The notes under the pieces: generated by a model
What the model saw: the letters and a program-made list of their open reading frames with translations, nothing else
Told to the model about the DNA's origin: nothing
The model's database searches: none
Source: Baylisascaris procyonis
Taxonomy: Eukaryota > Nematoda > Chromadorea > Rhabditida > Ascarididae
Assembly: GCA_037389465.1 (NCBI GenBank)
Contig: JAZARR010000095.1
Location: forward strand, 1,808,001 to 1,872,000
Reading direction: 5' to 3'
DNA length: 64,000 nt
In this document: one piece after another, positions 14,908 to 64,000 of the stretch
How positions within the stretch are numbered: the first letter of the stretch is position 1
Layout of the letters: every line of letters begins with the position of its first letter
Program-made: the position numbers and the translations under genes

Positions 14908-15061
14908 TTATGCATCGATATCCGAAAAAGTGGCCAATTGATAGTCGCCGAAATTGTTTCGAATATCACGACTGAGTGCTTCCATTTGGCCTCGAGCCAA
15001 TTCCTTGAGATCTTCTCTTGAAGCGATTTCATACTCGTTATCGTATCCTATCGAATGCACA
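14908..15061 (-). CDS. Cyclase-like exon 24: C-terminus and stop
   Basis: The acceptor is TATTGCAG and the exon ends in TAA. It encodes a helical, charged end ([20 protein letters not shown], then [14 protein letters not shown]). Incoming phase 2 agrees with exon 23. Confidence 0.88.
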
Positions 15062-18000
15062 CTGCAATAGGAAGATTACTAAACGGATATAGCAACGCTT
15101 TATACTGATCATCGTTTCATTTAAAAAATTTTTAACCCATCTCTAGGAGTTTATTGTATTACTGATAAACTGGTTATAACTGGTAATCTATAATATAATC
15201 TATAACCGTTTATAAAGTATTTATTTCACAATGGATCTTCCGAGCTTACAGTAATTACTATGAAAGGTACTATATCTGTAACGTGCCTTCCTTTCTTGCA
15301 ATACGAATTTAGCGCAAATATCCCGTTTTTATCGCCCAGACTTAAAAAAAAGTTGAAGTATTCTGAAATATTAATCACAGCCTAACATCCTCATAACTTT
15401 AATCTCATATATTAGCATAAATTAGACACTACTCTGTGGTTGAAATAAATGGCCAATTTTACTGCCAAATGTTTGACATTTGGCAGTAAAGTTTTAGCGC
15501 TTAGAGCTTAAGGGCTATCTTACTTTATAGACTATGCTAATTCGCTTAGTATACATAATATACATGTTTCTAGTTGCAGAAAGTAAGGTTTTATTAAGAG
15601 TTCGTGTGCTAATTTTAATGTTTAATAAAGTTTTAGCCCTGTTAAAGGTAAATTTCAGCGTAAAGTAACACTTTAGTATTATATTTGTTGAAAATTGTCG
15701 TTAAATACAACCGCCTAAATACTCTTTTCTACTTTTGAAGTTTAGATGGTATGAAATAGGATGTAAGCGATGTGATAGTACTTTTAATAAAGTTTCGACT
15801 TGATGGATAAAAGTATTAAGTTTCAGTGATAGACCAGAACTTTATTGCTGATTGATTTCAATCATTCATTCAAAAAAAAGGAAAAAAAAGGAGTTCCCAT
15901 TATAAAGAGAAATACCTATTCCACCGGATATTGCCAAATATAGAGGATGCATTTAGCGATGAGCATACACTATCGATATCAGCATCATTGCCATTGTCGA
16001 TTGTCTTCCAAATACGCCGACTCCTCTTACGGTTATCACCCGCTCTATACGTGATAATTATTTATAAATTAACAAAAAAATTATCATTGTAGAACAAATC
16101 TACTAAAACAAATAAGATAATGATCCTAAAAGAAAAATAATCAATGATTTAAAAAATAAAGAAAAATTTAAATATTAGTTTATTATTTAATTTCAATTTT
16201 TTCGCTTTTGATATCCGATATATGCAAATGTAATTTTGATAACAAAATAAGGCGATCAAAAACATATAATATGATAGAAATATTACACACAAAATTATAT
16301 AAGAAATATAAATATTTCAATAGAGATGAAATATAAATATGCAAATGACTTAGATATTTAAATAATTGGAGTGGAAATTTAGCAAAGTAGGGAGAATATA
16401 ATATTTCTTCCGATTATATTACAGATAAATATTTAATTTTATTTTAGGCCAAAAAAAGAATGAAACATCTTACTTGAGAGCATTTTTAAGTTGTTCAAGT
16501 CGACCTTCTAACATCTCCGAATCCGAGCAGATACCCTCTGATTCAGCATTATCGTATTCTGTGTGACATGCACTCGACATCTCTCTCCTATTGATTAAAT
16601 TTTTTTCGTTGTAATTATTGACATTCAAATCAACATAGTGCATATTTAATTTCCCATTAAATTTCTTAGATTTTTATTCTAGCTTGCAAAGAGTTATAAA
16701 AAGGAAAATCGGAAATAAATATTCTCAAGTATTTTATGCAAATTTTTTAGGCGCATAAAAATGATGGTATATTTTTGATACTAATATATAAACCAATGGT
16801 GATCGAAGAACAGAACAGAATAGTGTAATGACGCTAAACATAATCAAAATAAATGATCAACGAAACTGATATGCCGAAAAGGGAATGAAGATACAAATTT
16901 AGTCATGAACGGAATTATATATTGCACATAAACTACAACTTAATTATATTTCATCTGTTCAAAAAATTCAACTTTCTGTTATAAGAAGGAAGCTGAGGTC
17001 TAACGTTCTTTCAGATGACCGAAGCATCTTATTTAGATATATTTACGGAATGCCTAACCTCAAACTTCGAGTTGATGCCGAAAGTGCCGTAGGGAATGGC
17101 CGACACTCGAGTTTCCCGTCCATATTTGCAACTGCAGTTAACTCCTCTAACATACGATCGACTCGACTTGCCGCTGCAGCTAATCGCTCGACACCTTCTA
17201 GATAACTGGCACTCGTCTCTGATGTCATTGAACGACTCATCCAACTTGGTGTTCTACCACTTCGAGCTCGTCGATGACGAATTCTCTCTCGACATATTGA
17301 ACTTTGTTCACACTTAAAATTTGATATGAATGCATCTTTAAGCAACATATATAAAACGATGCCAATACCGCTGCAACTGTCAAGCGCTATCTACAGTGAT
17401 GTCTTTTATGCAACACTATAAAGTTTCCGTGAATGGTGAAAAAAATAGTGGAAACTTGTGTTTAGAAATAAGGAAATCCTTTAAAAAGAAGCCTCTTCCG
17501 GAATAACTCTTCCTGAAAATAAACAAAAATGGAGGAGATTTTCTTTATAAAAGACATTTCATGAATGAAACTTTTGTACTGGACAAATATAAAATTTTAT
17601 TGAAAAAAATTTAAAAGATTGAAAAATATTGAAAACAGTACTCATAAAATTTTTTAAGTCATCTCCTCACAAATTTGTCCTCCATTTTTTTCTTTTTTGC
17701 TTCAATATTCATAGTTTATCGTTTTCCCCGACCCTTCTTCTCCCTAAAAAGCCAAATTCTCAAGCCAAATTCATATAACCCCTAGACAAATAGCACCAAT
17801 CAATCTCGCTTTTCAAATATCAGACGCTATCTGCATTCCCATCGGATGTAAATTGAGTCGGTCGATTGAAGTGATGAGATAGAGAAACTCGACTCTTTGA
17901 CTTTGAAATAGATATCCACCGTTTGCGAACGCAGATAACGCTATCATCGAAAGGTCACATTCTTAATCCCGTACAACTAATCCGTTTTAGTACTATAAAT

Positions 18001-21000
18001 TTCACCTAGAGTCTGATGATCTATTTTACAATGCTCACGCCATGCACAAAAAGGAAGCTTCTATTCCTTGCATTCGCAAATATTATAAGATCGTTTAAAT
18101 GTATAAGTTTTCATCATCCACAAAATTTAATAAATTATTTATTACGAAAGTTGAGAGATAAATGCTACCAAAATGATATAAAATAGATTTAGAGTGGGAT
18201 CAAGACGAAAAAAAAGCGATTTTATGGAAACATTCATCAGTAGACTATGTATATTGCGCTTTAGAAAACATCAATTAAAGATATAGAATCTTCGCAGCCC
18301 TATCCCCTCGCTTATGATTACTATTATTAAGGGATCTATCCATTTTTGGTCTCCCAAAATTATGCAATAGAGAGGCGTTATCCGCTAGACTACATTCTAT
18401 CCGGTTTCATCGCCCTCCCTCTGAGTAGTTGAACTGTTAAGAAGATATTGAATTCTTGTCCATTAAATTGGCACTCTTTTTTAATCAGTGAACAATTTAG
18501 TTATAGTATTGCAAACCTCGGAAGCGTCCGAAGTGAGCGGATAGCAGGGTGCTGCGTATATCGCAGAAGTCGACGGTATCGGCTTACGTTCATACATGAG
18601 CATCTCCGGAGTGATCCACTCCATATCTGAGTCAGTCTCCACTCCGACGTCAATTGAATAGACCTCAGATGAGAAGGATGAATTCATCGACGCAAACATC
18701 TTCAATGATACGACTCTTTGTCCATTTTTTAGACTCACGGATATGGAGATCATCCATGCAGTATAACAGAATCCACCTACAGTGGCTAGGAAGTTATGGC
18801 AATAATCTGTGCAATCTAATATCCTCCTTGAAGATTTTTTTTTTGAACAGGTGGAGAAAAAAACAAGTAGAAGAGGGGATTGTAAAAGATGGCACGATAT
18901 GTGCTTTTGGAATCTCACTTAATAGATCCTAATTTCCGATCACGTTGAAATTTTAAAATTTGAATTTATGCTGGTTATTGCTAATGAATTCAAATCGATT
19001 CCATATTCAAAAACATTCACTGAAAACATGACAACAACATATCTTTACCTCTAAAGGATTCTGACTGTTCTCTTCGGCAGGTGCCGTTTCGGAACGGGTA
19101 TCTGTTATATCCTCAGGCGGATGACTCTCCTCGAAGACATAAGCGGTAAGTTGAGATGAGATCTTAATTGGGCGAGAATCGAAGTTGAAATTTCTTGGTC
19201 GAAGTGCAAGATAGATCTCTTCTGAGACCATAACTCCATAGCAATCGGCATGTTGCATAAGTTCACGTGCACGTACACATGCGCCACCAATCAACTCATA
19301 TGTTGGTCTTTCGCTGCTAATCACTGCCGATAGCACTGAACCACAATCGATTCCTAAAAAATTTAAATTGGAAAATTACAAACTTGCTAATAAGTTATTA
19401 CCAGTCGGCTGCTAAAATATATGCTCTTTCCAGCTTTTCTTTTTGGAAAATATGGGAAGAGTTTATCTCAGTGAACCTATAGACAGACGAAAACCATATT
19501 CTTTTAGCAAGAGTAAGGAGAAAAAAAGTAAAAGCATTCCGCTTGCTTCAATATCTACGACAATAATTGCTGGATAATTTACGATATTAGATGGATGCCA
19601 GAAAATATATCGATGGTGGCCTATTAGTGTAAATAAGGGATGAACGAAATCAGCGGAACTCTTTCTCATCAAAGAGAAGGCGATTGAACAACTATCGCGA
19701 GAGGATAATCGCTGTTGGTAAGTGGATATTCGGCTGTTTATTCAGAAAATTATGTTGACTAGAAAACAAAGAAACTTTTAGTGCGAAATTTCAATGAAAA
19801 AAAAAAACCGATTTCGCTTTCCATCGTTTAAAGCTTTATTTCGATTTTTCGACTATTCCATCGAGTAAAACTTCGTAACTAAATATTTCACTCTCTGAAT
19901 TAAAATGCCCTCAAGTTGCCCAAATTACTTTGTGATATAAACATATCTCGTAGGCAGTCTGAGATTCACTTTATTTATTATTTAATGCATTTTCCTCATC
20001 TCAAACAATTTTAAATTGTGTGAGTATATCTGCAATAAATGTCGCTCTTAAGCTGATGCCTAAGCTTAAAGAGCGAGCCTTCTCACTTCCCCAATTGTTA
20101 GAGTTAGTGCGCACGATTTCTTATTACGTTTCCCACAAACTACCTGCGATCAAATAATATCATATATTTTGACAAATTTCACTCGTAGTTTCATAAACGA
20201 TTCCATTGGGTATTGCCGAAAATATTATGGTGGATTAAAAATAAACGCTTTTTTCGAATGCTCTCACTATTAGTATTGTTATAAAGGTGTCTTGCTTGCA
20301 ACCAAATGAAAAGCTGAAATATACAAAAAACGGTTTTAAATTTCTTTTTTATCTCGACGTCAACGTAAGGATCTACAGTCTCTTAGTATCACTGAATGAA
20401 CGTCATTCGAGTATCGTGATAACCAACTTTACAAATGAAAATATTTAAAAGTTATTAAAGAGGGCATTATATCAAGTGTGGTCTCGAAAACTATTCTATT
20501 ATTATTAGTACTTTAAAGTCATTAGCGGTTACAAACCCTCTAGCAAACTGAGCATTTTAATTAATATGCCCTCTCTCTCCCCTCAAACACTCTCGTTTAA
20601 GGATAGATGCAAGAAAAATACCGATGTTAAGTGACATTCCGTGATCGCATGCGAACGCCGAAACGTTTAGAGCAAATTGAGTTAATTCGGCGAGGAGGTC
20701 TCCAATGGTCGATGGTGTATCATGTACCTAGAAGCACTCAAAAATTAATCTGGTAGATAGTGTATTAAATATCTGGAGGCATTCAAAAGTTAATCTGGTA
20801 GATGGTGTATTATATATCTGAAGGCACTCGAAAGTTAATCTGGTAGGTGGTGTATTAAATATCTGAAGGCATTCAAAAGTTAATCTGGTAGATGGTGTAT
20901 TATATATCTGAAGGCACTCGAAATTTAATCTGGTAGGTGGTGTATTAAATATCTGAAGGCATTCGAAAGTTAATCTGGTAGATGGTGTATTATATATCTG

Positions 21001-24000
21001 AAGGCACTCGAAAGTTAATCTGGTAGATGGTGTATTATGTACCTAAAAGCACTCAAAAATTAATCATAAACCCATGAAATTCAGTAAGTTGCATGGTTAT
21101 AAAATGCTAAAAATAGAAAATATATATGCTTTAGACTCCTTCTTCGGCCAAAAACATAAGAAATAGGCTTGCAATCTTCAAGAAATTTCACTAAACCACC
21201 AAAAATTTACAAAAGCCACACAGAATTCTGGTTAATGACATAATAAATAGATTTAAAAAGAAGCAGGAACTAACATTTTTGCTTGTTTCTGGAAGAATGC
21301 CGACCGCAACAACATATGTCTTACTGCAACTTCGGATCTTCTCAATACCACGATGTTGAAGAAGGATCTGAATGAAAGCAGAGGAAATATTATCCTTAGT
21401 AATAAATAACTGCAGAATGATTTTAAGATACTTATAGTAAATCCTTTCCCTTCGGAAATTTTGTTCGCGAGGTAAACGGTTAAAATAGACGGAAAATTAT
21501 AACATTTTGTGGATAAGAGTGCAGTGTACATTAAAAAAAAAGAAATTCTTGAAAGAAATTAAAGACCTAGTGAAACAACGTTCTGAATAATTGCAGCTGA
21601 AAGTCACCTTGAATAAACCCCCAAATAAAATTATTTTTTTGATCTATTTGTGTTAGATTTTCACCTCTTTTATCACGCAAATAGCGACAACAAAGATTTC
21701 TCTGTCCTCATTTCTTAAGCATGACATACTGACAGGATTTAATATACTTAAATAATAAGATTACATAAATTATTAGAGTTTGGCCATTGTTTTTTAACCC
21801 AGCGTTCTATAAAAAGTCGAAGTTAGTTCGGTAAAGGAGTCAGCATGCCAAGTATCATATTTCCCTCCCCCTCTTCCCCCTCCCCCCAAATGGTACTGAT
21901 TAAATTCTCCTTCGACAATCACAGTGATAAATTGCCTAATCATCTCCTTCAGTATAAATGAAACAATGACACTTCATTACATAAAAGTTATTTCTATATA
22001 TTTATAGTTGAACAATATAAGTATTTAATAATATCAAGCATAGAAAACATAGAAACGAACTTGATCAAAAACGGAAACAACATTTTTGAGTGTACAAATT
22101 GCACCTTCGCCATCTTCTTCATCCATTGCTATCTGAAATATCGCACAATTGACTGCTTAGTGGTTATTTATTATGCGATAATTTAATAACTACCTTTTGT
22201 AAGGATAATTTATAAAATTGATTCTTCGAACACTAGGATAAAGTTCGAGTCAGTCTAACTAAAGTTTAGCTCGAGTTTCAAATCTTCTAGTTAGTTTAAT
22301 TAAGTTTAATCTCTGGCGTAATAAATAGCTATAGGTAAAAGACTACATTTCTAAATTTGGCTTTAAATATGAATGCAAATCCCACATCCATTAAAAACAT
22401 AATTAAAAATCAAAGCAAAAAAAAAATTGAGAAAATCTCAACTAGAAATGATTATAAGATAAGTATGAATAGACTAACGAGTTGATTTAAATAAAAATAA
22501 ACGAACACTGATAAACGCGACGCCAACACTATGACAAAGATGATGATGCAACTCGGATTTGTTATAAAAAGTTTGTGCAACATGTACCGGCAACATATTT
22601 ATGAGCATCTTTTGATTAGCTGCCTCAACGTGTTCGTATTCTGATTTCTCTTCCATCTCCTAAATAAATTTACATCGATGAGTTTATCTTCAGGATAACG
22701 TCAATTATAAAAAAGAAACAGTCAGGTATGACATATGCGATTGATATTATTATGTATGAGATCAATAAATCAGACATCGATCAATTAATCAATCGATCAA
22801 ATCAATCGATCAATCGATTAACTAACTCATTACTCAAATAGTCAATCAATCAATCGATCGATCGATCAATCGTTTAATCGATAGATTAACCAATCGATCA
22901 GTTAATCAGCCGATTGATAATCAATCAATCAATCAATAAATCAATCAACCAATAACTACCATTCGAGAATACTGTAAAGAAAGGTCAGCTCATTAGTTTA
23001 TAAAGTTATGACTACATCTAGCCGACACCTCTTAGGTAACATTTTCAAAAGCGCATACCGCGCCTGTACGCCTGGCGGCATTTCCCATTTCATTACAATC
23101 AGACTTCGTTTTTTTTTTAATTTCAGATCTATTTTAGTCGTTTCAAATCATTTATCAACACCTTTATAAACGTAAAATTTCCAAGTACGATAATATTATA
23201 TTCTCTAAAATAAAATAACCTTGAGTTTAGACATGAATTCGAGACGAAGGATTCGCTCGTTCCTTCGCGCTTGAAGGAATATGAGCGCGATAAGAGTGAG
23301 CAGACCAACGAGTAGCTCCCATTCAACGTGATGAGATCTAAAATAATCTCTAGCATTTTCATGCTACGATTGATCAAAACTTATAAACATAAATCCTATA
23401 ACAATTGGAATTAATTAGAATTAAAGGTAGTAATTATTATTAGTAAGTAAAACGGTATTCTATCATATTGCAGCATAATGGTTTAAGGACATCAATATGA
23501 AGTTGATATGTTATATGCTTCAATTATTTTTTATTGCTAGGTAAGTCTAGTGGTTTTCTTTTGAGTTCCTTAATTAAGATAATAGCTAATAACTCATTTC
23601 GTAGAGTTCAAATATATTTCCTTTGCAGAAAAAATTAATGCTGTAGCCATTTCGTTTGGTGCGTTTCAAATTCGCCTATGACCGATCGATTGCCTTTTCA
23701 TTTCTCGATGAATAAGAAAACAAATCGTTATCAATTATTTAAACTATTTTAGAAAATGACCAACCATTTATTTTCAACTAAAATGACGAATTAAATCATA
23801 TTTCTGTAGGTTCTTATTCGTGCAAAAGTGAATATTTTCAGATGGTATATTACAATTGAAGAGGCCAGCACGACATGCGTTTTTTTTTTTTTTTTGCAAA
23901 TTAGCCGGTGAAATCAATCGATTAGCGAATAAAATCAATCAAAAATCAGTAATAGCCAATTTCGTGGTGAGATTCTTCCAGAAACTTATTAATATATTCA

Positions 24001-27000
24001 ACTAGAATGTTTATCCAAATTTTTAAGCAAGCCACTTCAAAATTTTCTATAGTAGGTGAATCAGCTAGGCTAATTCATCCCAATTCCATAGGTATTCATC
24101 GTCAATTCCTTCTTAACAGTATGAAATATAAATTTAAAAAAATATTTACTCAAATTGTAAAATTAATAAATAAAAAATTTCAGTAAATAAACTAACTGAG
24201 TGATTTGTGAATAACCAATATAAAGCATTGGATGCGTAACGAAGACATGTAAAGAATAGAGTAGAAAGGCAATTAATAAGGCAAATAATAGCACCATTGC
24301 CGAAAATCGTATAAAAACAACTGTTGCCAACATCCATATAGCACAACTCAATAACGAATAATGCACCACATAACATTCCGAATTTTCGGTTAAATCGTTT
24401 TTTTGTGGACATGAAAACTGCATATTAATTTGTAAGTTTAAATGAAGGGGGAAATTTTATCGTCATCAAGAGTATGGTTTTAATTATTAGCACTAGCGAT
24501 ATTATAAAATATTGGAAGATGAAAAATTTTTTTTTGAAAATTTTGGAAATTTTTATCGAAAAATTTTTACAGCTTAATGAAACTTTATCGTAATATTTAG
24601 GTGATCGAAAATTTCACCTTATCAGTAAATAATCAAGATAAAGCGTTGATAAAAAGATGAAAACCCACCGTATTGACAATACCGCAAATAAATAGAAGTG
24701 CCAATATTAGTAAAATAGCTGTTGAATGACCAATAGCAGTTCGTGTGATAAAATGACAAAAATTCTGAAAATATAGAATATGAATGTGAGTTCACTTAAA
24801 AATTTTGTAAAAAGTGTTTAAATTTCAAGTGAGATAAATTTTTTTCCCGTTGATTTCCGTTGATCGATTGCGTCGATCGATAAAATTCGATTATTTTAGT
24901 CAAGTTTAGTTGTTTTCTTCTAGAAACCTCCGTTTGGAATGGTCATCTTTGCCTACGGGCATATTCCAAATCAGCTGAGAAACAAAACAACAAATTTTGC
25001 AAAGTGGAGTTCGTTTGAATGCCAAAATTTATCCTCAAAATTGATGATAAGAAATAAAACAGCAAGGTGCATAATCGTTAGCTTTGTTTATTTTTTGATA
25101 CTCCCAAATATTCAAAAAGCCTTTCGAATTGGATGGATAAATACAAAATGCGATATGAGACCATCGTTTGGTATGCATTATATCGAGCGAATTTTTTATC
25201 CCTAATTTCATTGATCAAAAAGCTGAAAGTTCCGCATAGGACGACAGACAGACACACAGACAAACAGACAGATATACAGACAAGGGTTTGAATATGCGCA
25301 AACGCGGCGCTTTATAAATGCAAATTTTTAAAAATATATAAAAAAAGTCTCGATTGATTTCATTCGCATCAATTAACCGCCAATAAGCTACAATGAATCA
25401 AACCCTTCAACGCGTGAATGATTATGCAAATTTCACATTCATCTTTCTTTGGGACGACGGACGTCTAATATCACAAACCGAAATGCTCAGTTGAATACTT
25501 CTGACTAATCTTCTCCATCAGGCAAAATGAAATGAAATGAGTTGAATCAATTCAAACGCTAGCAGAATATCAAACGAAATATGCAAATATTTACATAAAA
25601 AGCTTGAAATATTTTCAAATATTACTGAAAAAAATATGAAATGCTATAAAATAGTTGAAATTTATTTATCGATTGAAAAAAAAAATTCAAAAATAGTAAC
25701 CTGAAAATAATTTATATAAAGTATGAGTAGAATGACGAACATCGCCGCAAGTGCGACAACAATCAATACTAATGTTGCTATTTGCCTACAAATGTATGTA
25801 TTAATGTTGATGTCAACGTATACACATTTCAGACATTAGAAATACAAAGTTTTTCTCATTTAAAAGTGGCAAAATTCAAAAATTAATTGCTTGGCCAAAA
25901 TTGGACATAATGGCCAAAATTGGACATAATGGTCAAAATACAAAACATCTAGATTAATAACAGCAGGAAAAAGTAAGATTTACCCACAAATGCAACCTAT
26001 TTAATTTGCAGTTTCTAATAAACCAATTCCCATAGAATCATGAGACAAGTGTCATTGATTGCTGATGCTGACAGATTGTGGAAAGCCTATCGACGATGAA
26101 AAAACACCTAACTTTGTCTTACCATACGCTATGTTGATATACAACAGCTAAAATCTCACCGAAAGCGAGAAGTTCTTTCCACCTATGATTTCAATTAAGG
26201 ATGTATTAGTCGTCAATATAACGAAAAATGGTAAAAATTAAACCAGTAAACCATGATATTCATAACCAGCAAAGTAATAATGGTAACTACTTAATCGTAA
26301 ATAATTAGAGCAGTCAGCTCGAGTGTAGTACTCTTTTCTGCTGACCTGATTCGACGTTTAAGCAATAGCCGAAAGTATATAAATGAGCATGGAAGTTGAA
26401 GGGCGCTTGTTGAATATTGCAACGAAAAACTTTTACTTAACCATTATTAGACATTAATTTTGCCTCATTTGATAACTGCACTGCATATAGAAGAATGAAT
26501 CTAACCGTAAGCTAGAAAATCATTGAAGAAGAAAGGTAAAAACCTGGGAAGGACAAGTACATGATAGACACCATATACAACCAAGAAGAATATACTAATT
26601 GCTAGTGCTGGTATGAACCACTGATCGAGTTGTGTATGAAACTGAAACAATTAATTACCTTTATTGTATTAATATTTTTAGTTTTTATATTAATAAAAAG
26701 AGTAATTTCTGAAGAAATATGAAGGCGATCATTTATGAGGATTGATATCAATACATAATTCGAATGGAATTCGAGATTATTTCAATAGTATTATTTCAAG
26801 TAGCAAATTATGGTTAAGTCATATTGGTGAATATTCGCCAATAAATTTCTATGCTACTTCACCCATCCCTTCTAGCCTCCCCTCACAATCCCTTTTAATT
26901 CCTCCATGCCTATCATCGTAATCAATGCCATCAAACAACTCCCTTATAGGAAATTCCATTATGTTTACATGAAACAACGATCATTTTTAATTTTCTGAGA

Positions 27001-30000
27001 GCGAATAAAGCGGTACTTCCGCTGTATTATTGTATTCTCCATTTAGAAGGTTTAAAAAAAAAAAATTTAAATGATTTGATTTTTTATTCTCTATAAACCA
27101 TCTCCTTTGCATCTCATGATCATTGCTAAGTTTAATGTTACTTAAAAATAAAAATAAAAATTTCAATCAGGATCCATTTTTTATGATTTTCAAATAATTC
27201 GCTTCTGTAAAATTGCCTTTCTCAATAAATTGTTGTATTTCAATCATATTAGAATAATAAATTTTCGAGAGAAAATTTATAGAAATAAAAAATTTCTAAG
27301 ATGAAATTTACAGGCTATGAGATTTTCTTCCAAATCACATGACATAACTCGCTCATCCTATATAAAGTTGGAATTTTAAAATTTAAAAGTTCTTAAACTC
27401 ACAGCAGCTTCCATTTCCGGATTACGGAACCGTAAAGTACAACTATGCATAAGACTCTTTCCTTGATCTCGTTTATCCTCTAACTTATCACCAACACTTA
27501 GCAATTTTTCCATTTTCCTGAAAAAAATGTTATCAATTGAAATTATCTAATTAAATCTATGCTCGTTAATAGAGACTCATATGCTGGATTGAGATGAAAT
27601 AATAAAGCAGGAAATCAAAATCCCCTGCATTTTCAATTACACAAAAAAAAAGTTTCATAGAGAAGTGCTGATTAATATCTAAAGATAAGGCATTAACGAC
27701 ATTAATATTTAATTATGATGATATTAATGACTTCTTATAATTACTTTTTAAACTTTTTACAACTTACTTTTTTCAACTTTCTACAACTTACTTTTTACGA
27801 CGTCCAGGTAATGCATTCGTTTTGAGAAGTGAATCACTAGTGGATGCAATCGTTTGAAGGAGACGATTCACCGCTTGTGGTACAGTTACCAAGGAATATC
27901 GACGCAAATTTGGGAACAATATCGATGACGGTAGATTCGAACGATCTTGTGGGATAATGCACCAATTACGTTCACATTTTTCGACGGTGAATTCATCACC
28001 TTCTATTTGTCTCTTTGCATTCTCGGCCAAGAATATACCGCTGTAAAAGTGAAATTAAATTAGTGCACCTATGTCTAGGCCTGACTTCCTCAACCACAAA
28101 TCTGAAGGAAATTTAAATAAACAGCCGCATCTTCGAATTGCTAATTTAAATTTTGATGCCTTATCAGTAATAATATAACGTTTGCAACTTAGTGTTTAGA
28201 TGTTTCGAATTGCTAATAAGGTTTTATCTTACAATCTGCACATTGGCATCAGAACTGGAAATATTTCTTTACGCAGTAATGGCTCCCAAAAATGTAAAAT
28301 ATAGATAAGGCAATTCGCAGAGTTAGCTATTTGCAGTAATAGTAAAACAGTAAAAATTAGAGTAAACCTAAGAAACGTTGGATTGCAGCAAGAATTAGAA
28401 TAAAATTGAGTCGCATAAATCAATAAAACAATAAGATTAAAAAACAAGTAACAACCAATAATAAACAAAACAGAAAACACTAACAAAATTGCAAACTTTA
28501 AAGAATTTTTTATTCAAAAATTTGCGAATTCTTTAGCATATTTCAATTCATTGAAATAATTGTAACCGAATTTTTTTTTTTTTACCATTTGTTCTAAAAT
28601 AAAATTCGACTTTTGATTAGCTCCCTACTATAAGTGCTCAAACAACAAATTTTTCTTTGGTTTTATTTGTAGCACCTTTAAAGTAAACAACTATTAGACG
28701 GTAACAGTGGCGAGGTGTTAGAGGACCTGATCAACAAATAGAACACGTCTTGCTTATTGAATGTAAAAGGAGAACACGTTTCATTGCCAAATATCTCATA
28801 ATTGATGAATTTACCCTTAAATTTTCTCTCCATTTAGTGCTCTCATTTATGCCTTTCTTCAATAATGTACACATTTAACGCCATTAGAACCGCTAATTGA
28901 ACGATTTTTCTCTCTATTGCAAGAAAATTGAATCATTGCAAGTGCGGTTATTCACAATGCGAGTAAATAAAACTGCAAGGAAAAAATTTCAGAAAATTAT
29001 TTTGCATATAGATATTCACCTTTAGATTCACAAAAAAAGTCACCCTGCAAGGACCCTTTGCCATGTTTCCCTTCATTACAATATTTGACCTCATCCCACT
29101 TAACACTTGTTGTCGCTCTTCCACATAAGAGTTCGAGCTCGAGTTACATTTCAAGCTGTGTTCTTAACGTTTACGCATTAAACAGTATTTGTTGTTTCGA
29201 ATAAAAAATCAACAACTCATAAATTACCACTGAGTTGCGGTACGTTCAATATTGATAGCCTCATCAAGTGATGAACCAATAATATCATAATGCCATTTAG
29301 TTATACCAACTATACCGGCAGAAATTGAACCCGATTCAATACCACAACGAAATCCAAGTTCGGCGGTTGTTGAATCACAAAAACTTCTGCAAAAATAAAT
29401 ATTTTATTATATTATTGAGTATATATTATATTTTACTATATCTAATAATTGTGAGGTTTTCATATATTTTTAAAAAGGAAATGACTGTTTTCTAGTTGGG
29501 CAATGAATTTTTTTGAATGATTGAAGAAAATTTGAAATTTGAATTTTGCTAAATTCGCACAGGACATAGGATGGGATTTTATGTGAGTGTAGTCTGAGCA
29601 ACTGGAATTGGATAGGTCTTACTTCCTCCCTCTCCCCCATTCCCCCACCCCACCTCCACCCCACCCTCACCACCCACCATTCACCTTCCATCTCTTCTGA
29701 CTGCGGAGTCTCATTTTTTTGTATCGCTATAATAAATAACGATCATTTCGATGAAGTTAGAAAAAGCCGTGGTGATTGATGTTTCATTAACACAATGAAG
29801 ATAAAATACTCAAGATAAATCACTCAAAAAATAGACATAATTTCTTTTCTCGCAAACGATTTTCATTAGATTTTTGTTGACAGTTTTAATGGCAGTATAT
29901 AAAACAATTAGAGAAATACTGCACTAATTATTTCGGAAAAAAAGCTGAGCTTGTGGAAGTTTTCTCGTGTCACTTGAGTGTATACTCTGGTTTTATTTGT

Positions 30001-33000
30001 TGTTTCCCAAAAATTATTGAATTATTTACATTTGTTTTGAGGTTGTATTTATTATTTATTAATATAAATCTATGCTCATGCTCGTTTTATTTTTTTTACG
30101 TCGAAAGTCTATTTAGGCAATCTTTTATCAATCACGTTTTTTTTCTTGAGATCCGCTATGCTGATTCGAATACCACATACAATTTGAGTGCTCAGGTTCA
30201 ATGTGAACTTCGCTTCTAAGAATCAATCCTTTCCCTCTACCTCCCTCCATCCTTCTATTGTCCTATGACTCTTTAAATTTCACCTCATACTAAAGCATCT
30301 TCCACCTCTTCCCAATCGAATCCCGCCATGAACAAAAGTTTTTTGGAAATAAAAAAATGAAATAAAACAGAATTGAAAAAATTTCGAAACTTTTAGGGAG
30401 AAATGAATAAGAAATCTCTAAATTTAATGAAACTCTACCAATAAGTGAGAGTTTTTATAGATTCAAGTTGGCATTTTCACTTTTAAGATGCACTTAGCCA
30501 ATTCGATTTGAATTGCGTTGAATACGATAAATAAGACCCGTAAAATTGTTGCCTATTAGAGATAGGATTATACACATATAGAAGATTTTATTAATTACCA
30601 CCATTCAATTCCACAAGAATCAAAAATTGATTCTAATTGAAGTTGAGCTTTTCAAAGCAATACCATGTCTGCCTAACCAGTCGATGATGTTCAAAGACAG
30701 CTAAGACAAAAATCCAAAGTTTTTTTAGAGTTTAGAAACCTCCCTCAAGAACGGAGAAGGGGGTAGTATTTGGAGGGTTCAAAAAGATTCCTTTTCCCTA
30801 AACAATCTCTCGAAACTAAGAAAATCACATTCCCTTGACCTTGAACGAATGGTTCTAGATTACACAACAAAAAAAAGTTTGTGGATTGAAAAATTCATTC
30901 AAAAAAATAAACACCCAATATCGGATTCGAACAGTGATACCTTATAAATCTGCGCTAGCTTCTCATCTTTGAGGTCAATGTTACATATATTATTTGGATC
31001 GTCTTCGCAATAAGGAAATTTTCAATGTTTTTCAAAAGTATTCGTTTGTTTCGTTTTAAATCTACCAAAATTATTAAATTACAAATATTATTATAGAGGA
31101 GTGAATAAGTAATTTCAGTTAATTACTCTATGTAGTATATCATTTAATTGTTGTGTTCAAATCAAAAAATAAAAAATAAAAATAAAAATGAGCCAATAAA
31201 TGAGAAAAAGAAATAGTTCTGGTCGGAAATATTTTTTATTCGAAAAAATATTCCTAGCATTTATGATTTACTAATTATTTATGTTGAAATTCTACGCAAC
31301 TATTAAATAGCACTCATTTATTTATGCAGGTGAATATAATAATATATAGAAACTTATCAATTTTATTCGGTTTTTTAATCTAAAAACCACCTTGGTGGAA
31401 TTGTGGAAAAAAAGACGTTGTGCTCCCTATAAGAATTGAACTAGAACATTGCATTACACCTCGACGCTTACGCGCTTAATTATACAAATCTGCGCAATAT
31501 CCGCATTTATCCGTTTAGCTTATAACATATAAGAAATTGAATTGTGCAGCGAGGGCTAAATGAAACTGTGAAAAGAAGTTGTGCTCCCTATAAGAATTGA
31601 ACTAGAACATTGCATTACACCTCGACGCTTACGCGCTTAATTATACAAATCTGCGCAATATCCGCATTTATCCGTTTAGCTTATAACATATAAGAAATTG
31701 AATTGTGCAGCGAGGGCTAAATGAAACTGTGAAAAGAACTTCATAGTCACTTAATTTATGAATTTGGAGGAAAAATATCACACTTGTTTATTCAACGACA
31801 AGCAAATCATCATCTAGATAGAAAAACACCTCTTCATGTCGGCCACTGATCATCTCCCCTCCCCTCCCTTCTCTCTCATTTCTTCAAAATTTAAAATAGT
31901 ACTTCTATGGTGAAATAACACCTCTTTTCTGCTGCACTATAAGAGGCCATCTACGAATGATTTTGCAATCGAATCACATAAAAACAATTTTTTTTTTTTT
32001 AAATGAGTAATAATCAAAAATAGAGCGTAAAACTGACTTGATAAGTGCATGCAAATCGATAGCGAACATAATAGCGTTACGTGTATGCTCATCAGTGATA
32101 TTCGGAAGTCCTGCCACAACAAGGATTCCATCCGATTGTAATCGTAAACAATTACACTTCTGAAATAATGCCCTTATCACTTTGAGTTTATCACTGGTGA
32201 AAAATAATATAGTGGATTCACTGATAAAAGAGATTAATAGGGCGTTAAATTATATTGCAGTCGACGAAGAATACAACTGATCTGAAGTCAGCGTGACAGT
32301 TGTAACCTGAAAGATTCTAAATTGTGTCACTCTTATTAGACTATAGCCTGAATGTCGGTTTGAAAGGATGCATCAAAAAAGCGGAAATAATTTTGAATTT
32401 TTGAAAGCATCATTTTGAATTCATCATCTAAATATGAATTTTTTAAAAATTTTTAAATAAATCTTTTGAATTTTTTAATACACCTCTGTTTAATTTTAAA
32501 GAGAGGTATATTTTAAATCCAAATGTTATTTTAAACAAAAAATTAGTAATTTTTAAATACCCATTGCGAATAAAAAAAGAAGAGTAAAATCCTCATTAGC
32601 TACTGACTTCTTCTTTACCGCATAATTGTGGTAAAATAAAGAAATTTATTAGTGAATATAGCACCATAAAAACTGATCAAAGCATAAGAGAAGAATCTCT
32701 GCCATTCTTTTTTATTTGAGGTGGCCTCTCTTTCCTTCATTCTCTCTCTCTTTCTCTCAAAGAAAGAACAAGAAAAGCGCATTCAACGAGAGTAGCACTT
32801 TCTTTTGTTTTGTTTGCTAGTTTAAGCTTCTCATCTTGCACAAATGCTGTTGATTGACAACGGTGAGCAATGTGCGGTGAACTATGGATCAGTCTTTGAT
32901 GCGCTGATCAATGTGTGATTTTCGCGTATTGACAGCTGTTTCCTCAATCAAAATTTATATTCACCCTTAGTTGAGTTCACATTTCAAAGCAATTTAATTT

Positions 33001-35476
33001 TACCGAATAACGAAGCATATTCAAATTTTAAATATATTTATGATTTTTTTCTAGAGGACGGGGGGAGGGGGACGGGGATGAAAGAGAGAAGACCAGTTGT
33101 TATACCATATACTAGCTCATCATCTGCAAATATGGAAATCTCAAATCTAAAATCCCCTTGGGATATTACAAAAAAAAAGAGCAAAATATTTTATTCATCT
33201 ATTTCGCCATTTATTGACAAAATGTCGTTCGCGCATTTTCGCGTCATATGGCCGTTAGTTTGTTGCATTTTGCGCTCAACAATTACTCAACAATTGAGGG
33301 CAAAGAAGACTGCTGAAAAATGACTTGCGAGCGATTTTGAAGCGAATTTCCGCAAAAATTGAGCGAAAAAGAGCGTCACATATTCATAAATCATATGTGC
33401 TGTGTGTGCAATTTCCAATAAGTGATAGGAACTTTGCAAGGAACGAATTATTTGGAATTAAATTTTGCATATTCTCAAAAATAAAACATTCGCTTCAAGA
33501 TTAGACAAGATGGAATTGGGTTAAACAAGTAAGATTTCAACGAGGTATAGGCTATTGCAACCGCAACTAATAGTAATTACTTCCGATGCGCTTTTTCATT
33601 TAAAGTTTCTAATTTTTATCTTTCAATTGAAAAAATTTCACATTTAATTTAATTGAAATTATGACTTGAAAAATCATTGAAAATTTGAAAAGGAAATTTA
33701 ATTCTCATAAAATTTAAAAAATCATTGATAAATATTAATTAGATTAATGAGAAAGATTGTCGTAGAACATTCCTTTCCCCGCTCAGATCTCCTTTCCTTC
33801 TCAATTTCTTTCACCTTTTTCTCAATAATTAGTATTTACGCGTTTGGTTTTGCAATGAAAATCCCTCAAATTCAGTGTTTCGACGAACGTTTTTTTTTTT
33901 TTTGGAAATCAGGCAGAGTTATTGCTGAGTCTGGATATTAATACAAAGTGGGATATCATAAAGCAACCGAGAGCATTGAGAAGGAAGAATGTACACAAGA
34001 AAGGGAGAGGGTTTAGTGAATGTAGAAGGACAATGGGTGATATAGAACAACGATGGATATGACAATATGGCAACCTATGATTGAGCATTGCAGCATTATC
34101 AATTGACAGCTAACCGCAATACGAGACAATATTGCTTATAGGCGATTTGCCTAAGTGCCTTTTTTTTTTTTTTTTTCATTTCAACTTCCCACTCATAAAT
34201 ACTACCTAGACAGTATCTATCTGTTAATCATACATTGAAACGAAAAGAATTTCTGAAATATTTTTCTTTAAAGTTTCCAATTTCTATCTTTCACAGAAAA
34301 ATTTCTTATTTAATTTAGTTTGAAATAAAGATTTTTCTGTTCTCAAATTTTCTGGAATTCAATAAATTTTTACAATAATCTTAGAGTCGTTTAAAACAGG
34401 TTTTATTCATATTAGCTGATTCTGGAGCACTTCATCCAGGAAATGGCTCCGGTGATACAATTCGGGAGAAAGGGGAGGGGTGGGCAAATATCAAGTGGCA
34501 AAGGGAGAACACTTGTTAACGATGTACATTTGTTGAATGCGTTTAGGTTATGGCCCAATAAAGCGAAGATTAATGCTACGATGTGTTGCAGTCGGGCTTA
34601 CATCTCAACAGAACAACCAGCTGTCACATCTAAGAATACTTTTATATAGCTTCAAAGCATTTCTTCGTTATAAAGACTTGTAAAGCAATCATCGTCAGAA
34701 TCTACTTACTCAACTCACAAATCGATTTCGTTAGAAGCATTTCACACAATAAACATGCATATTTTATCAGAAAATGATGATTAGATTTGCAAATGATATG
34801 ATACGGAAGCATCGATAAACCGATGAAATTCTCTAGTAATCTGATGGCAATTATTCGGTTCAGATTCCTCGGGTAACGTCATGATCCTTCTTTCGTAACA
34901 CTTTCGGCAGATCTTTACCTATTTTTCCAAGTCCCCTCTCCAATACTATTTTGCACTATCTTTTCACAATCGATTTGCGTTTTCCAACGAAAATTCACGC
35001 ACTTCTGAGGATCGTTTTGTGAGAGTAGTTAAATAAAAATGACGACTATATTATCCCCTTAGATTTCTGCCAATGATTGCTTTATATAAGTGCTTTAGAC
35101 GTCAAATCTAAATGGTTCCGACAATATTTAGTTGAAACTCACCCTATTTAAAACAGGAAATGCCAGTATAACTTTTTATATAGTCGAATAAAGTAAATAT
35201 ATCGAATATATTACTGTTGGCAAATAGTAATTTCCCGCCTCCTTATCCTACCCTCCCATCTTGGAAAAGTTACCCGTAAGAATCTATAAAATTTGCCACT
35301 TAGAAGTGTAGATGAAAGCACACCGGTATGCTAAAAATTATTATTCCAAAATTTTACCTTCGCAATTTGATCGATTCTTGAGTTGAATTCATTCAATAAT
35401 CGAGCACCATCTTGTGGACTACATTGAGCGAGAATCTCCTCTAAGCCTATTAAGCGTCCATAAACGACACTTAAAA

Positions 35477-35539
<63 letters not shown>

Positions 35540-38500
35540 TTATATCCATTGTGAAATTCAAATAAAATTTTTCAATAATTAAAAATCATTAAAATTATAA
35601 AATGTAATTTTCTATCAACTATCGTATAGTATGATCTTAATTATTTAGAGCATATTGCTCACTCATATTTATAGGATATGACTAATTATAAAATTAGAGA
35701 TACGATATTTATCGAAAATTTAGCAATGCAATTATTGTTTGCCTCAGAAATTCTATTTCTAAAAATTTCGGCTCATGAATTCATTTCTAAAAGACCTAGC
35801 AAAAAATTATTCAAAATATTAATTTTTACGAAAAAATTTCACCAATAATTGAAATTTTTTTCAGATTTTCAGCTGCAAAATTTAGAACAAAAAATATTTT
35901 CCACTCTGTCATAACATTTTACCTCATCATCTTATTTAGAAATGAAAAAAAAAATGTTTTAAAAAATCCCAGAAAATCTTTACAATGTCATTATCATCGG
36001 AGATTCTCTATGTAAGTAAGACAAATCCTTCTCAATCAATAAAATACTCTTTTATTAAGTAACCTTTTGTGAGCTAATATGAGAAGCATTTATTCACCAT
36101 ATTCCACTCTTATTCTATTGGAGTGTGTTATTTAAACTGAATGTGTTAAAAGGTGTTTATATGACCTTTCTACGGTTATTTGCATAAATAAAACGGTTGG
36201 CGATTTGCATAAGTAGAACGGTTGGCGCAATTTGTTTTAAAAAGGAATGTCATGCTTGAAAAGAATGAACAATTTGTAAATTAAAGTTAAACATAGTAAA
36301 ATCTTACGTTACTTGACTGTAGTGTTCGGTATAAAGTGTTGGCGGTGTCTTTGTGAAGTGTTCACGAATACCATGCACGAGATGTGGAGGTACTGCTGTT
36401 GAAAGAAGATCTGTCTGTAAAGCATATAGTATCATTACTGTAGAATATATAGAGGATGTTGATAAGGTCTAAAGAATTGTTTGGGAAGGAGCGGGGGGGG
36501 GGGAGATTGATTTGAGGAAGCCTGGAGATCGAAAGGACGCGCAACGAGAGAATATCTCAAAAGCAAATTTAGAAAACCTCAAATCGGAAATGGTACCTTT
36601 GTGAATCCGTCTAGAATAGTGCGAATTACTACAAACTACTTTGGAATTTGTTGCATGAGTCAGAAAAAGTAGTACATATTATATTCCGTCTCGCATTACG
36701 TCTCTATTTGTAGTTAGATGTTTTAAGGGGTTTATGCAACCTAGTTTTGGTATTTCAAGATAAGGGGGGTATGGGCTGGAGAGAGGGGAATAGCACATTT
36801 CCTTCATCGTGGTCTTAAAGCCCTAGCAGCAGACCTTTAAAGAAACAGACGAAACCAGGTAACATTTTTTGCTGTTGCATTAAAAACACATGTCTAACAT
36901 ATGTGGTACTTTAAGGACTTTTCTAGCAGCCCGAAATCAACCTGAAATCCTTTACACCCAACAGTGTTGTTTGCATGGTAATTATCGACGTGATTTGTAC
37001 ATTTCACTGTGAAAATAAACCTAAAAATTTTAATATCAGCATATCATAGCTTTTTTCTTAAAGCAACGATTGCTGAAACTAGTTCTATATACTCCTTATC
37101 AATGATCATAAAAATCAATTTTTCACCTAGCCGATCAATAATAATTTTTATTCGATAAGCCCTTAAACAGATGTATTAAACGCTTGTCGTTTTTTTCCCA
37201 TTTAGGAAAAAACAAAATCAAATTTACTTATGAGTATGAATTCCGGCGAATTTTTGAGGAATTTTTTTTCTGTTTTAAGAAAAAATAAGAGAAATTTGCT
37301 TTTCCTCATCGGTCATTAGCATGAGATTTGTTAAATCAAAAGATGCCGCATTTGTCAGCTTAAATTTAAATCAATATTTCCATATTGTTTAACATCTTGC
37401 TACGCTATATATCAATGAGTTTCTTCTCAAAATTTTTGGTAAGAAAGCAATTTGTTTTATCAACTATTCAACATATCTCATTGCTAATTAATCAACAAGA
37501 CTCTCAATCATATCACCTTATCAAATAGCAGAAATAAATTTTGATCAATGATTTTTATATCTTCAACTATTGGAGAAAAATATCGATGAAATATTAAGGG
37601 GAAATCACGGAATGCGATATTCTGGAATGAATTTTCTTTTAAAATTCTGGAACTCTGGAATGAAATACCTTAGGAAATTTCTATTCAAGTTTTAATAATA
37701 ATTAAATATTTTAAGTTTAAAAGAGCGATTAATATTCTCACATTTGTGGCGAACATGGAGAAATAGAATTGTTTTCTCCAACATAGCATCGTGAATATTA
37801 GTGAAATGAGGAAGTGATAAATTTCGAGGATTCCAATAGAGGATTAAGGCAAAGACTCCCTCTCCTCTTTTCTCCTTTCGTCCATTCTTGTTTTTGAGGA
37901 ACCCCTTATTTTTTGACTGTCAAAAACTTTGCCCGTTGAAAATAAAAAGTCACTGTTCTCAATAACCCACTTTGCATATTACACTTAACTGAAAGATTCT
38001 CGATGTGCATCTATCTATGCATGAAATCAAAAAAAGGCAATGTGATGAGCAAACGAACAAAAATTACGCATTTTTCAAAATTCGATTTTAAATTTATAGC
38101 TTTAGTTATTGTAATTATTAAACTACTGTTTAAAAAAAAAAAAACGCCTCATTCGATACTATACTACGAATCGGATCTTGTTTCTTAAAAGAACAGCATT
38201 GTAGGAAAAAAAGGATTAAATTTGATGCCATAAAAAGTTTCAAAAATCATTGCAAATTAAATAAAATATCGTATTTGAATTCCAAGAACATAAACTAAAA
38301 AAATTCCGTATAAAAATTATACATACTAAAATGTAAATAAATGAAATATCCTAGAGATATAGTTCGTTTATTTTTTTTCTCCTTATTTTCATATTAAAAT
38401 ATCATTTACATTGGTAAATTTCCACATTGTGAAATAAAATAAATAATATGTAAATTGTGATCACCAATCGCAGACGCATTCCGTTACTTTAGCCGTTATT

Positions 38501-41500
38501 CTTTACCACAAAAATATCCCTCTCTCAAGAGACACTTGTCGGATGTGAAATATTCTTTCCGGTCTTTTTTTGTTGAAGTGCACAATAGACAATTGGAATT
38601 GTTGGCGCGGTACTAACAATGGTCAATTGAGCCACATAAGAAATGTTTAGATGTTCTTTTATAAGTGGGGACATGTTTAGAAGAGAGGTGTTCCTTTATA
38701 GTCTCGTCTTGCAGCATTATATCATATTAAAAAAAACAGTTGAACATAATTCTCTTTGAATATTCTCTTTCTACCTATTTGCCTCCACACAAACGCCTTA
38801 TACTCTATGCTTAATTCATATTGTAATGCTTAGAATTTCTTAGAACCTATTATATGAGAAATTTCGGGTTATTTTTTTGGGAATTAGCTCATTTTAGGAT
38901 TTCAAGCAATTAACGCTATTCACGTTATAACGTTATAATGCAAATTCCATGACGCTAATTGTATTAGACATTAATATAACAGAGCAATATAAATGGTGCA
39001 AGTGATTAGGTAAAAAAAAATAAAAATAAAAATAACTAGAATAAAGCATTTAATCAATGTGCTGCTTTATTGTGAACAACTTACCAATTTTGTATTTTCT
39101 TGTATGGCACGTTCTTCGGCGGTAAATGCATTACGTGCACGTAAAAATGCACCACGACTAATACGATCTCGTGTTGAAGATGCATAGAAACCAATGAAAT
39201 GTGTCCATAGATGTATAAGTCCAGATGCCAAAAACTGAAAATTCATATTTATATGGAAATGATTTTTCCCGAAAGAAAAAAATAAAAATTGAAAAATTCT
39301 TTTCTTCAAGGCAATTAAAAATTTCCGAAAATATGACATACAATAAATGGTTATTGCACACAATCAACGCGCACACCAACTGGACATTATAGTGGACAAG
39401 TAATCTCGATTATGATGTATTGGTTCACTTCCTCTTCCGTTGCAGCTCATTTAAATTGAGCGCATTATCGGACTTATTTCTTCTCACCTGCGTGATGCTT
39501 GTCCTATACATTACTTGTAATTGCGTTACTTTTTTTTACCACCGATATACTACAATGACCACCAACGATGATAAAGGGATCAATTGCAAAATGATGGTTT
39601 TCAAAAAAAAAAAACATTCCTTTGAGCCGACTTGCACATTTCAAAGCTAGTTGTCAATTCTCAAAAACAATATTATGAAAAAAAAAACACCATAAAACAA
39701 GTGGGAAAGTGTAGCTTTCTTTATTTTCATTGCCTCTGGTGATTAAAGATTCGAAAGTGATTGAATATTTTAAGTTTCTGAACCTTAATTATGGAATGTG
39801 AACTTATTCATTATCTGTCCGTCAGACGCGATCTCAAATATACGGATCTTCAATTAAACTTGCAAATTCTGCGGCCAACTTCCTTTAGCATGCACAGTAG
39901 ATTTTACAGCATGGAGTGAAATTAGGCGTTCGCAGCTTTACAAAGACTTCAAGAGATTGTGTTTCAGACATTTTGAACAGATTAAAAAAAAAACACTCAG
40001 ACTTTGTGAATATTCGGCAATCTCGTAGCTTTCGACCAACAGAGGTCAGGGGTCAGGGGTCAGGTGTTCGAAGAATAAAGGTTGCTATAGAGCAAAGGTA
40101 ATGATTAATGATTTGATATCACGCTTCGAAAGCGCTAGGATACAATTATATGAGAAGGCAAACGAGAAATAAAAAAATCAATCAGTGAATAGATCATCTA
40201 TAACGATCGAATAAATCTTAGCTTACCCAATCACACATCACGTATATTTCAATATTAACTACTGTGAAGTGAATTTTTGGTCTAGAGAAAAATTTCAATG
40301 GCATGGCCTAGTATAGTACTTCAGTGGCCTAAAATCTTCTGTTAGCCAAGTGTATCGCTATGTGTAGCTATGAATGAATCTCTCTACTTTTGGAGGAGGT
40401 GAGAAAGGAAAGAGACTATCCATTTTGAACACAAGTACTGTCGTTTCCTCCTCCTCCCCCTTCCCCAACAACTTGTCAGGACTGCGGCATATGCATAAAC
40501 TTAATTATTAGCATTACGTAAATATTTTTAAATATTTCAATTTTCACACTTAAATGTAGGTCGTCTTGCTTCGTTGGAGGACAGCGTAGAATTCGTTGTG
40601 CCTTCATAGCCTATCATCCACGACTGCTAAATTTTCTTTAATTATAGAAGGTTTACCAATTAAATTCTGAAATTACCTTCATCAAAAAGTGTTAACTATG
40701 ATCTTATTTATGTCACTCAATAAAACCCTTGATAAAGCTTGCTATCGTTTCTACTAGACCAGCCAAATGATTTATAATGAAACTAAGCTAAAGGTAAAAT
40801 TTTTTCTCATACTTTAGTGGTTTTCTTCGTCACAAAGCGTTTTCATTCAAAAAAAAATGCTTTAGAAGCAGACTTAATAATCCAAAATTCTATTCCACAC
40901 AATTCTCAATTATTCAAATACCTTTGATATTTAAATACTAAATAACACTAACGCGATAGGAATTTCCATGTACAAAAATAAAAGAAATCTGAATGAAAGG
41001 CATATTTCTAATGACTTCTTTCCTGAAGGCATTTTCATCATTCAACGATGTGAGACATTGCAATTCTTATTGATTTGTCGAATTTTTTTCGAAAAAAGAA
41101 GAAAAAAGTTAACTAAATATTACTATTTGACATATGATGGCATTTTCTTCATAGATGACATTAAAAATCTAGCTTCACTCAAGAAAATCGATTGCTTTTT
41201 AATCGATTTTTAGTATACCTTTAACGTCAAATTCATCTTTTTCAAGGTGTCAAATCATAATGACGATTCTTAAAATAAATCAATAAAAATAACTCAAAAA
41301 TTTCATTGAATTTTTTTTAATATTCAAATGTACTTTCTTAATAGTTAATATATATTTTACTTTTATTCATTTTTATTTGTTCAAATACTCAAATATTCAA
41401 GAGTTTACCTAAATATTTTATATCGCATAGTTTATTAAAATAAAGTTTCTCAGCTCTATTATTATTATATGACTGTCTGAATAAGATTTATTGCTAGGAA

Positions 41501-62502: not shown

Positions 62503-64000
62503 CATATTAAATTATAGGATACAGGGATATGCATCGTTCGAAAGTATCAATGAATGGGGGATGCAAAATGAGTGAACAAAGAAGAGAATAACCATCGATG
62601 CGCTTGCAAGTTGCATTCTCCTTTGCACGTCTATCGGCTTTTATTTAATGAAACACTCAATCACTTCAAGCATCCTGAATGTTCAGTTATCTTCAAGAAA
62701 ATCCACAAAATAAATCAATTCTAAAACTAGAAACTCGTAAATAATCGCTAAGTAAATAATGACTGAATGGTTAAAAGCCCTTTTTTATTGTAAAACAATG
62801 ATTTAGGAATTGTGAAAACTATTTTCGACATTTTTCAGCCAAGAAAAAAAAAACTCCAAGTTTCTCTCCTCTTCATAATTGTATAGAATGCTCGAATTTT
62901 TTTTTTTTAATCTAATTCAAATGAGGCAGAAATTTCAAAATTTCCAAATTATACTTTTCTAAATTTTAGTGCTCTATTTTAAATTTTCTTTAAAAAAAAT
63001 TCCCATTTTCAAAAATTTTAAAAAAATATTTCAATTCATAAATGATCCAAATTAAAGAAATATATTGATTTTTTTTTGTTTGATGACATATAGCATTACC
63101 TTACTAAGCGACATTCCCACGATCAACTTGGCGGAAATGTAAATATTTGTTTACGAAACATTGTGATGCTATTGACCTCTGCAAACATTTTTCAAGTGTG
63201 TTTCGGCATTTTTATTGTCACATCTCAGTTATACTTCTCATTCGATTTGCATTCTATATAGTTGTAACTTTTGATCAATAAAGTGATCAAAAGTATGCAC
63301 TCGATATTGATATGCCAACAAAATGATTATTCGACGATCGATAAATTTTTTTTTTAAATTCTATCACTGCCAAAAAATAAAATACACGCGCACAACAAGA
63401 TTGAATGAATAGAAAATGTTTTCTCCCTCAAATTTGACAAATAAAAATAAAATAATTGGCAAAAGAGAAAATATATTCATGATTGAAAATATTTAATAAA
63501 TACATTTTAATAGATAAAATTTTAGAAGTGTTTTATTGATATTATTAGTACAATATCAAGGATTGTGAATGAATTATTGAAAATGAAATACACTTCCGGT
63601 GGGATTTTAAGCGAACAGTGGGCAAAAATATCAGAGATAAAATCAACTGGTGGAAAGAAATAGAAAAAATATTTTCAAATTTTCTTCGAATTACCGGAAA
63701 CGTTTTCTACTGATTTTCAAAAAAACAAAGCAAACAAATATATTTTCGAATATAATATTTGAGAATTTTATGCATTCATTGATTATTTTAGAACCTTTAC
63801 AATGGGCCTCTACATGACTCTTATAAATTATGTAGTTAAAAATTGCTTCGAAATGAGGCTAAATATATTTTTGAAAGCGAAGAGATTTTCTTATTATTTC
63901 AATTTTCTTTGTATAAATTGGAAAACTCAATTTTTTCAGTTGAAAAATTGAAGTGGAAATGAAAAAAAAGGAAATGAGTTGGAAAACTCATTGAAATGTT

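Follow-up and report, generated by a model that had tools for sequence, protein, structure and literature searches.

Does a membrane adenylyl cyclase that has exchanged its catalytic residues for others still make cyclic AMP (cAMP), or has it been kept for another purpose? This question is raised by a minus-strand gene in a 64,000-nucleotide stretch of Baylisascaris procyonis DNA (contig JAZARR010000095.1, positions 1,808,001 to 1,872,000; hereafter the window), which we assign to acy-3. Our analysis of its sequence and that of its relatives indicates that ACY-3 is most likely an ancient nematode pseudo-adenylyl-cyclase, functioning as a membrane receptor or scaffold.

Identity of the gene and state of its active site

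The gene was assembled by hand, first from splice signals and then under the guidance of orthologous proteins from Ascaris and Brugia. This gave a model of 23 coding exons (52151-14908, minus strand) encoding 1203 amino acids without internal stops. An earlier 897-residue version, lacking the 23337-23220 exon and the tail exons, was used in Pfam, solved-structure and orthologue searches. PF00211 matched this version in two stretches (E-value 1.1e-37), and among solved structures it matched the adenylyl cyclases AC8, AC5 and AC9. By fold and descent, the protein belongs with the membrane adenylyl cyclases: it contains two class III cyclase homology domains, and two membrane domains around C1 in an AC5/8/9-type fold.

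When residues 150-897 of the shorter version were used as a query, and 7995 word-sharing candidates scored, we obtained 50 close relatives (P0001-P0050), of which all the named ones are nematodes. These include an Ascaris suum protein (97% identity over 67% of the query), BMA-ACY-3 of Brugia (60%), Toxocara, and Caenorhabditis (40-43%), a genus for which our coverage is four proteins (P0019, P0020, P0021 and P0024), the C. elegans ACY-3 sequence itself lying outside the sample. Since these relatives include BMA-ACY-3, and the first match beyond them among the candidates scored is an insect cyclase with only 20% identity, the gene is, judged by its relatives, acy-3, orthologous to nematode ACY-3, with which it also shares tail motifs and losses. 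A search with an ACY-3 profile (7990 word-sharing candidates scored) yielded no canonical nematode cyclase. It added one nematode orthologue, P0172, which is excluded from the counts below but agrees with them (Arg at the first C1 metal Asp; Ile and Gln at the C2 Asn and Arg), together with five weak, unnamed cyclase-domain proteins that have other domains (P0173-P0177). P0052, which combines a kinase with a cyclase domain, was removed before counting. None of the named orthologues comes from Trichinella or Trichuris, and the age of the loss is set only by the groups sampled.

In the C2 head, the interval 19353..19049 on the minus strand is a single coding exon (acceptor TTTTAG, donor GTAAAG) that reads ...GIDCGSVLSAVISSERPTYELIGGACVRARELMQHADCYGVMVSEEIYLALRPR.... 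Ungapped alignment with PQYDIWGNTVNVASRM places Glu at the adenine Asp, Val at the Asn and Glu at the Arg, exactly as the earlier note on this DNA had read them. We take these positions to be D1018, N1025 and R1029 in mammalian numbering, with the Asp contacting adenine and the Asn and Arg serving the transition state. At these positions, YELIGGACVRARELM occupies the place of YDIWGNTVNVASRMD in active cyclases. The same note had reported Arg in place of the adenine Lys in exon 17; the substitution is there, although the exon (21367-21275) is the 16th coding exon in our model. As this position is Arg in 24, Lys in 22 and another residue in four of 50 sequences, the change is weak evidence, and we rejected it as a strong sign of inactivity. 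A scan of the window's six frames with four patterns (two for the N...R helix, one for the metal-Asp motif and one for the KGKG loop), made in search of an alternative exon restoring Asn and Arg, hit a single site, on the plus strand at 63118 and outside the gene; no exon restoring the active site was seen with these patterns.

We then counted residues in 51 sequences (the window protein and its 50 orthologues), including at each position only those sequences with a residue there. The first C1 metal Asp is Arg in the window protein and is absent from all 38 sequences (R28 K5 T3 Q2), as is the phosphate-loop Thr (E36 D1 Q1 of 38). The C2 Asn is retained in 3/48 and the Arg in 2/48, and no sequence has both, so that the family lacks both the complete pair of C1 metal aspartates and the C2 Asn-Arg pair of an active cyclase. 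The stretch before the second metal Asp is shortened in 36/36 sequences, by two residues in 32, and among the 29 long sequences the first Lys of the KGKG loop is lost in 28 and the second in 29. Change is less complete at the second metal Asp (D20 E13 S3 K1 of 37; Asp in the window protein) and at the C2 adenine Asp (E39 D7 N2 Q1 of 49). As controls we used P0051 and the 119 best other matches, that is, the best 120 of 7812 for one insect query; these are type-2-like cyclases, from insects wherever named, and some are isoforms of one species. All 120 retain each catalytic residue and the normal stretch length. Because the C2 losses recur across nematodes while the controls keep the residues, they are not a matter of chance.

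Rescue by a mirror-image site was considered and rejected. Among 29 sequences, C1 has Asp (22), Glu (6) or Ala (1) at the mirror-site Asn position and no Arg at the Arg position, while the two mirror-site Asp positions of C2 hold one Asp between them, at one position. Therefore, no full site is expected in a normal or inverted arrangement, or when ACY-3 dimerizes with an active cyclase. By these counts, the earlier note saw only part of the loss, which is both broader and more ancient and extends over the sampled ACY-3 family. Its proposal of a pseudo-cyclase held under selection fits well with an open 23-exon frame, 50 orthologues in which Asn plus Arg (0/48) and the first metal Asp (0/38) are missing, and a C2 head 93% identical to that of Toxocara, a clear sign of constraint at the protein level.

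Fold, constraint and conserved motifs

In a structural model of the Brugia orthologue the cyclase fold is predicted to be retained, aligning to AC9 over 622 residues. ACY-3 thus seems to combine the attributes of a pseudoenzyme: a retained fold, missing catalytic residues and a conserved gene. To see where constraint lies, identities were compared among 29 ACY-3 sequences (the window protein and 28 of the 50 orthologues, each of at least 1040 residues) and among the 120 controls; 210/406 ACY-3 pairs and 5995/7140 control pairs covered all five domains, 203 and 5113 of them falling under the identity ceiling. Mean identity in the cyclase heads is 44-47% among ACY-3s versus 84-95% among controls, and in membrane domain 2 it is 52% versus 34%. 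Measured in this way, constraint in ACY-3 has moved away from the heads.

The three best-conserved 12-residue stretches in 27 diverse sequences, SSACHTEYDNAE, WNSVHSIGYDNE and ETDSDMEWITPE, all lie in the C-terminal tail, which is predicted to be disordered in the Brugia model. A Tyr-x-Asn motif, which we take to be an SH2-docking pattern, is present in the first of these in 46/46 covering sequences and in the second in 38/43. The tail was also considered as a known domain and rejected, the matches (Pfam E-values 0.089 and 0.12; PDB 0.36 and worse) being at chance level. Within C1b, a [KR][KR]-x-[ST]-hydrophobic motif, presumably a protein kinase A (PKA) pattern, is found at S414 in 40/40 covering sequences, and at any other alignment column never in more than one.

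Exon structure and neighbouring features

All coding exons are on the minus strand. Their boundaries were picked to yield GT and AG, so clean splice sites carry no independent weight, and exon 20 has an uncertain acceptor. Exon 1 (51708..52151) supplies the initiator Met and the bulk of membrane domain 1, its N-terminus matching A. suum P0002, and exon 2 (39085..39234) the end of that domain and a helix towards C1, where AC_N scores E 9.9e-6, below its cut-off. C1 starts in exon 3 (36308..36414) and runs through exon 4 (35358..35469), in which Arg replaces the first metal Asp (VVYGRLIGLEEI), exon 5 (32038..32159), with the second metal Asp retained (QSDGILVVAGLP) behind the shortened stretch, and exon 6 (29228..29386), with a KWHYDIIG block. 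C1b is encoded by exon 7 (27792..28040), carrying the PKA-like site S414 in LRRYSLV, and exon 8 (27403..27517). Membrane domain 2 extends from exon 9 (26544..26641; WFIPALAISIFFLVVYG) through exons 10 (25701..25785), 11 (24669..24764) and 12 (24197..24417) to exon 13 (23220..23337), which adds a helix into C2 and is present in A. suum P0002. C2 occupies exons 14 (22507..22659), 15 (22061..22132), 16 (21275..21367; IEKIRSCSKTY, with Arg at the adenine Lys), 17 (20622..20727; conserved NVHDTPSTIGDL) and 18 (19049..19353), where the Asp, Asn, Arg and KGKG loop are lost and VSEEIYLALRPR is conserved. The tail follows in exons 19 (18517..18699; SSFSS...ETDSDMEWITPE), 20 (17059..17285; AAASRVDRMLEEL), 21 (16474..16587; SSACHTEYDNAES), 22 (15916..16044; GNDADIDSVCSS) and 23 (14908..15061; SVHSIGYDNEYE, NFGDYQLATF and the stop). 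Exons 3, 8, 10-12, 14, 15 and 20 are taken from the gene model, which is joined by alignment for exons 4, 5 and 16, by conservation for exons 6, 9, 17, 19 and 21-23, and by both for exon 18.

The A. suum P0002 entry apparently runs on past exon 13 into the following intron (after 23220) and stops there, giving C1 and the membrane domains with no C2; this truncated form would be either an isoform or the result of intron retention. In the intron ahead of exon 17 there are eight copies of a 45-base-pair unit (20706-21065), extending into the exon, and these resemble its acceptor and first bases, which lines up a series of potential decoy splice sites. Between exons 5 and 6, a 161-base-pair unit is present in two tandem copies (31410-31738) whose 99% matching makes a recent duplication probable. 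Facing the 3' end of acy-3, on the plus strand, are pieces of a secretin-family (class B) G-protein-coupled receptor gene (7204-7449 and 9854-10054; PF00002, E-values 1.6e-9 and 1.8e-4). A scan of the 64-kilobase window against Rfam gave no match at the gathering score.

Possible functions and known systems

Since the catalytic parts are lost yet the gene is intact, it probably has a regulatory job rather than one in cAMP synthesis. We consider it likely that ACY-3 is a membrane protein of cyclase fold, incapable of producing cAMP by the two-metal mechanism and repurposed in regulation. Such repurposing would have occurred in the ancestor of the sampled nematodes. The membrane domain may act as a ligand sensor; the same has been proposed for its counterparts in mammalian cyclases, to which PMC11606603 gives a lipid-receptor role. 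The heads could then serve as a non-catalytic transmission or docking module, with output through the PKA-like C1b site and the conserved motifs of the disordered tail. The complete scheme, in which a receptor was made from an enzyme through early loss of cAMP synthesis, with a membrane domain sensing a ligand (perhaps a lipid), an invariant C1b site for PKA that would make ACY-3 itself a target of the cAMP pathway, and signalling by the two Tyr-x-Asn motifs of the tail, is a tentative proposal that we hold as one possibility among several.

Several observations weigh against this picture. The receptor, PKA and tail-docking roles are deduced from conservation, and a PKA-like motif occurs somewhere in C1b of 35/120 controls (85/120 have none). 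The Brugia model as a whole has a predicted template modelling score of 0.57. The shift of constraint was measured against one canonical control type (the best 120 of 7812, partly redundant, from an insect query), mean information content is similar in membrane domain 2 (2.71), C2a (2.64) and C1a and the tail (both 2.55), C2a is more alike than membrane domain 2 in the window-Brugia pair (73% versus 65%), and membrane domain 2 of Strongyloides is only 28% identical. Finally, decay is uneven, because the second metal Asp (20/37), the adenine Lys (22/50) and Asp (7/49), the Asn (3/48) and the Arg (2/48) each remain in some sequences.

Alternatively, ACY-3 might act as a decoy or a dominant-negative regulator: with no catalysis of its own, it would bind G-alpha or form pairs with active cyclases. 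The modelled retention of the fold and two-head layout, the 73% identity of C2a to Brugia and the title of PDB 8sl4, a dimeric form of human AC5, are in keeping with this, but an active partner would find a complete half-site in neither head. Moreover, the Phe at F991, which we take to be a G-alpha-s contact, is present in 120/120 controls and gapped in 29/29 ACY-3 sequences, which makes direct G-alpha-s binding less likely, although the loop is poorly aligned and the gap is not decisive. The two roles suggested in the earlier note, binding of G proteins and pairing with active paralogues, are therefore less well supported than its pseudo-cyclase, and we regard a decoy or partner as unlikely. 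More doubtful still is a sensor role in which a nucleotide or cyclic nucleotide would be bound but not turned over, since the change of the phosphate-loop Thr to Glu, Asp or Gln (38/38) and the losses of the first metal Asp (38/38) and the KGKG loop are unfavourable to a triphosphate. An active type-5-like cyclase, as print assumes for C. elegans acy-3, is very improbable: many orthologues are named adenylate cyclase at source, and PMC4693460 assigns acy-3 as the worm AC5 orthologue by BLAST, but the metal Asp, phosphate-loop Thr, Asn plus Arg and KGKG lysines are gone family-wide, and the 897-residue version, scoring 168.9 bits against AC8 and 164.2 against AC5 among solved structures, is not specially AC5-like. 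A decaying gene or mis-assembled pseudogene, for which only the missing catalytic residues would speak, is rejected as having virtually no chance of being right, given 1203 codons in 23 exons with no internal stop, a 97% identical A. suum entry and conservation spanning the Ascaris relatives, Caenorhabditis and Strongyloides.

If ACY-3 is instead a pseudo-cyclase, published work on the C. elegans gene may need another explanation. PMC4693460 counts acy-3 among four C. elegans adenylyl cyclases and reports that worms in which it is knocked down by RNA interference (RNAi) respire more, have a higher mitochondrial content, resist stress better and live longer; the interpretation of this knockdown as AC5 inhibition would then need a different mechanism, and if the receptor scheme holds, these metabolic and lifespan effects would not come from less ACY-3-made cAMP. 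In PMC5428847, which lists acy-3(tm2461), only acy-1 mutations among the four cyclases reduced cold survival, and an acy-3 strain is listed in PMC8374539. Among the matches listed in searches of open-licence papers, and in the accessible text of PMC9552081, PMC9692727, PMC12346295 and PMC12414865, we found nothing describing ACY-3 or any nematode cyclase as inactive, though an earlier remark elsewhere is possible. Judging by four other Caenorhabditis orthologues, one of the four C. elegans "adenylyl cyclases" belongs to a family that probably does not synthesize cAMP. With the membrane part kept and catalysis apparently gone, the ACY-3 family would provide a natural test of cyclase membrane domains as receptors.

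As a pseudoenzyme of known fold, ACY-3 would be of a familiar kind, although we found no description of this case in these literature searches. With AC5, AC8 and AC9 it shares two PF00211 stretches and the order membrane domain, C1, membrane domain, C2; unlike them, it lacks the first C1 metal Asp, the phosphate-loop Thr, the C2 Asn plus Arg and the KGKG lysines, and has a long tail with conserved motifs of its own. A cyclase fold is also seen in a bacterial protein, PDB 6yii from Pseudomonas aeruginosa, whose title calls it a class III cyclase-like ATP-binding protein and not a cyclase. Also close are BMA-ACY-3 and the other nematode ACY-3 proteins, orthologous to the window gene and carrying the same losses and tail motifs, whereas C. 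elegans acy-3 is called a type 5 adenylyl cyclase in print, at odds with the reading of the ACY-3 family put forward here.
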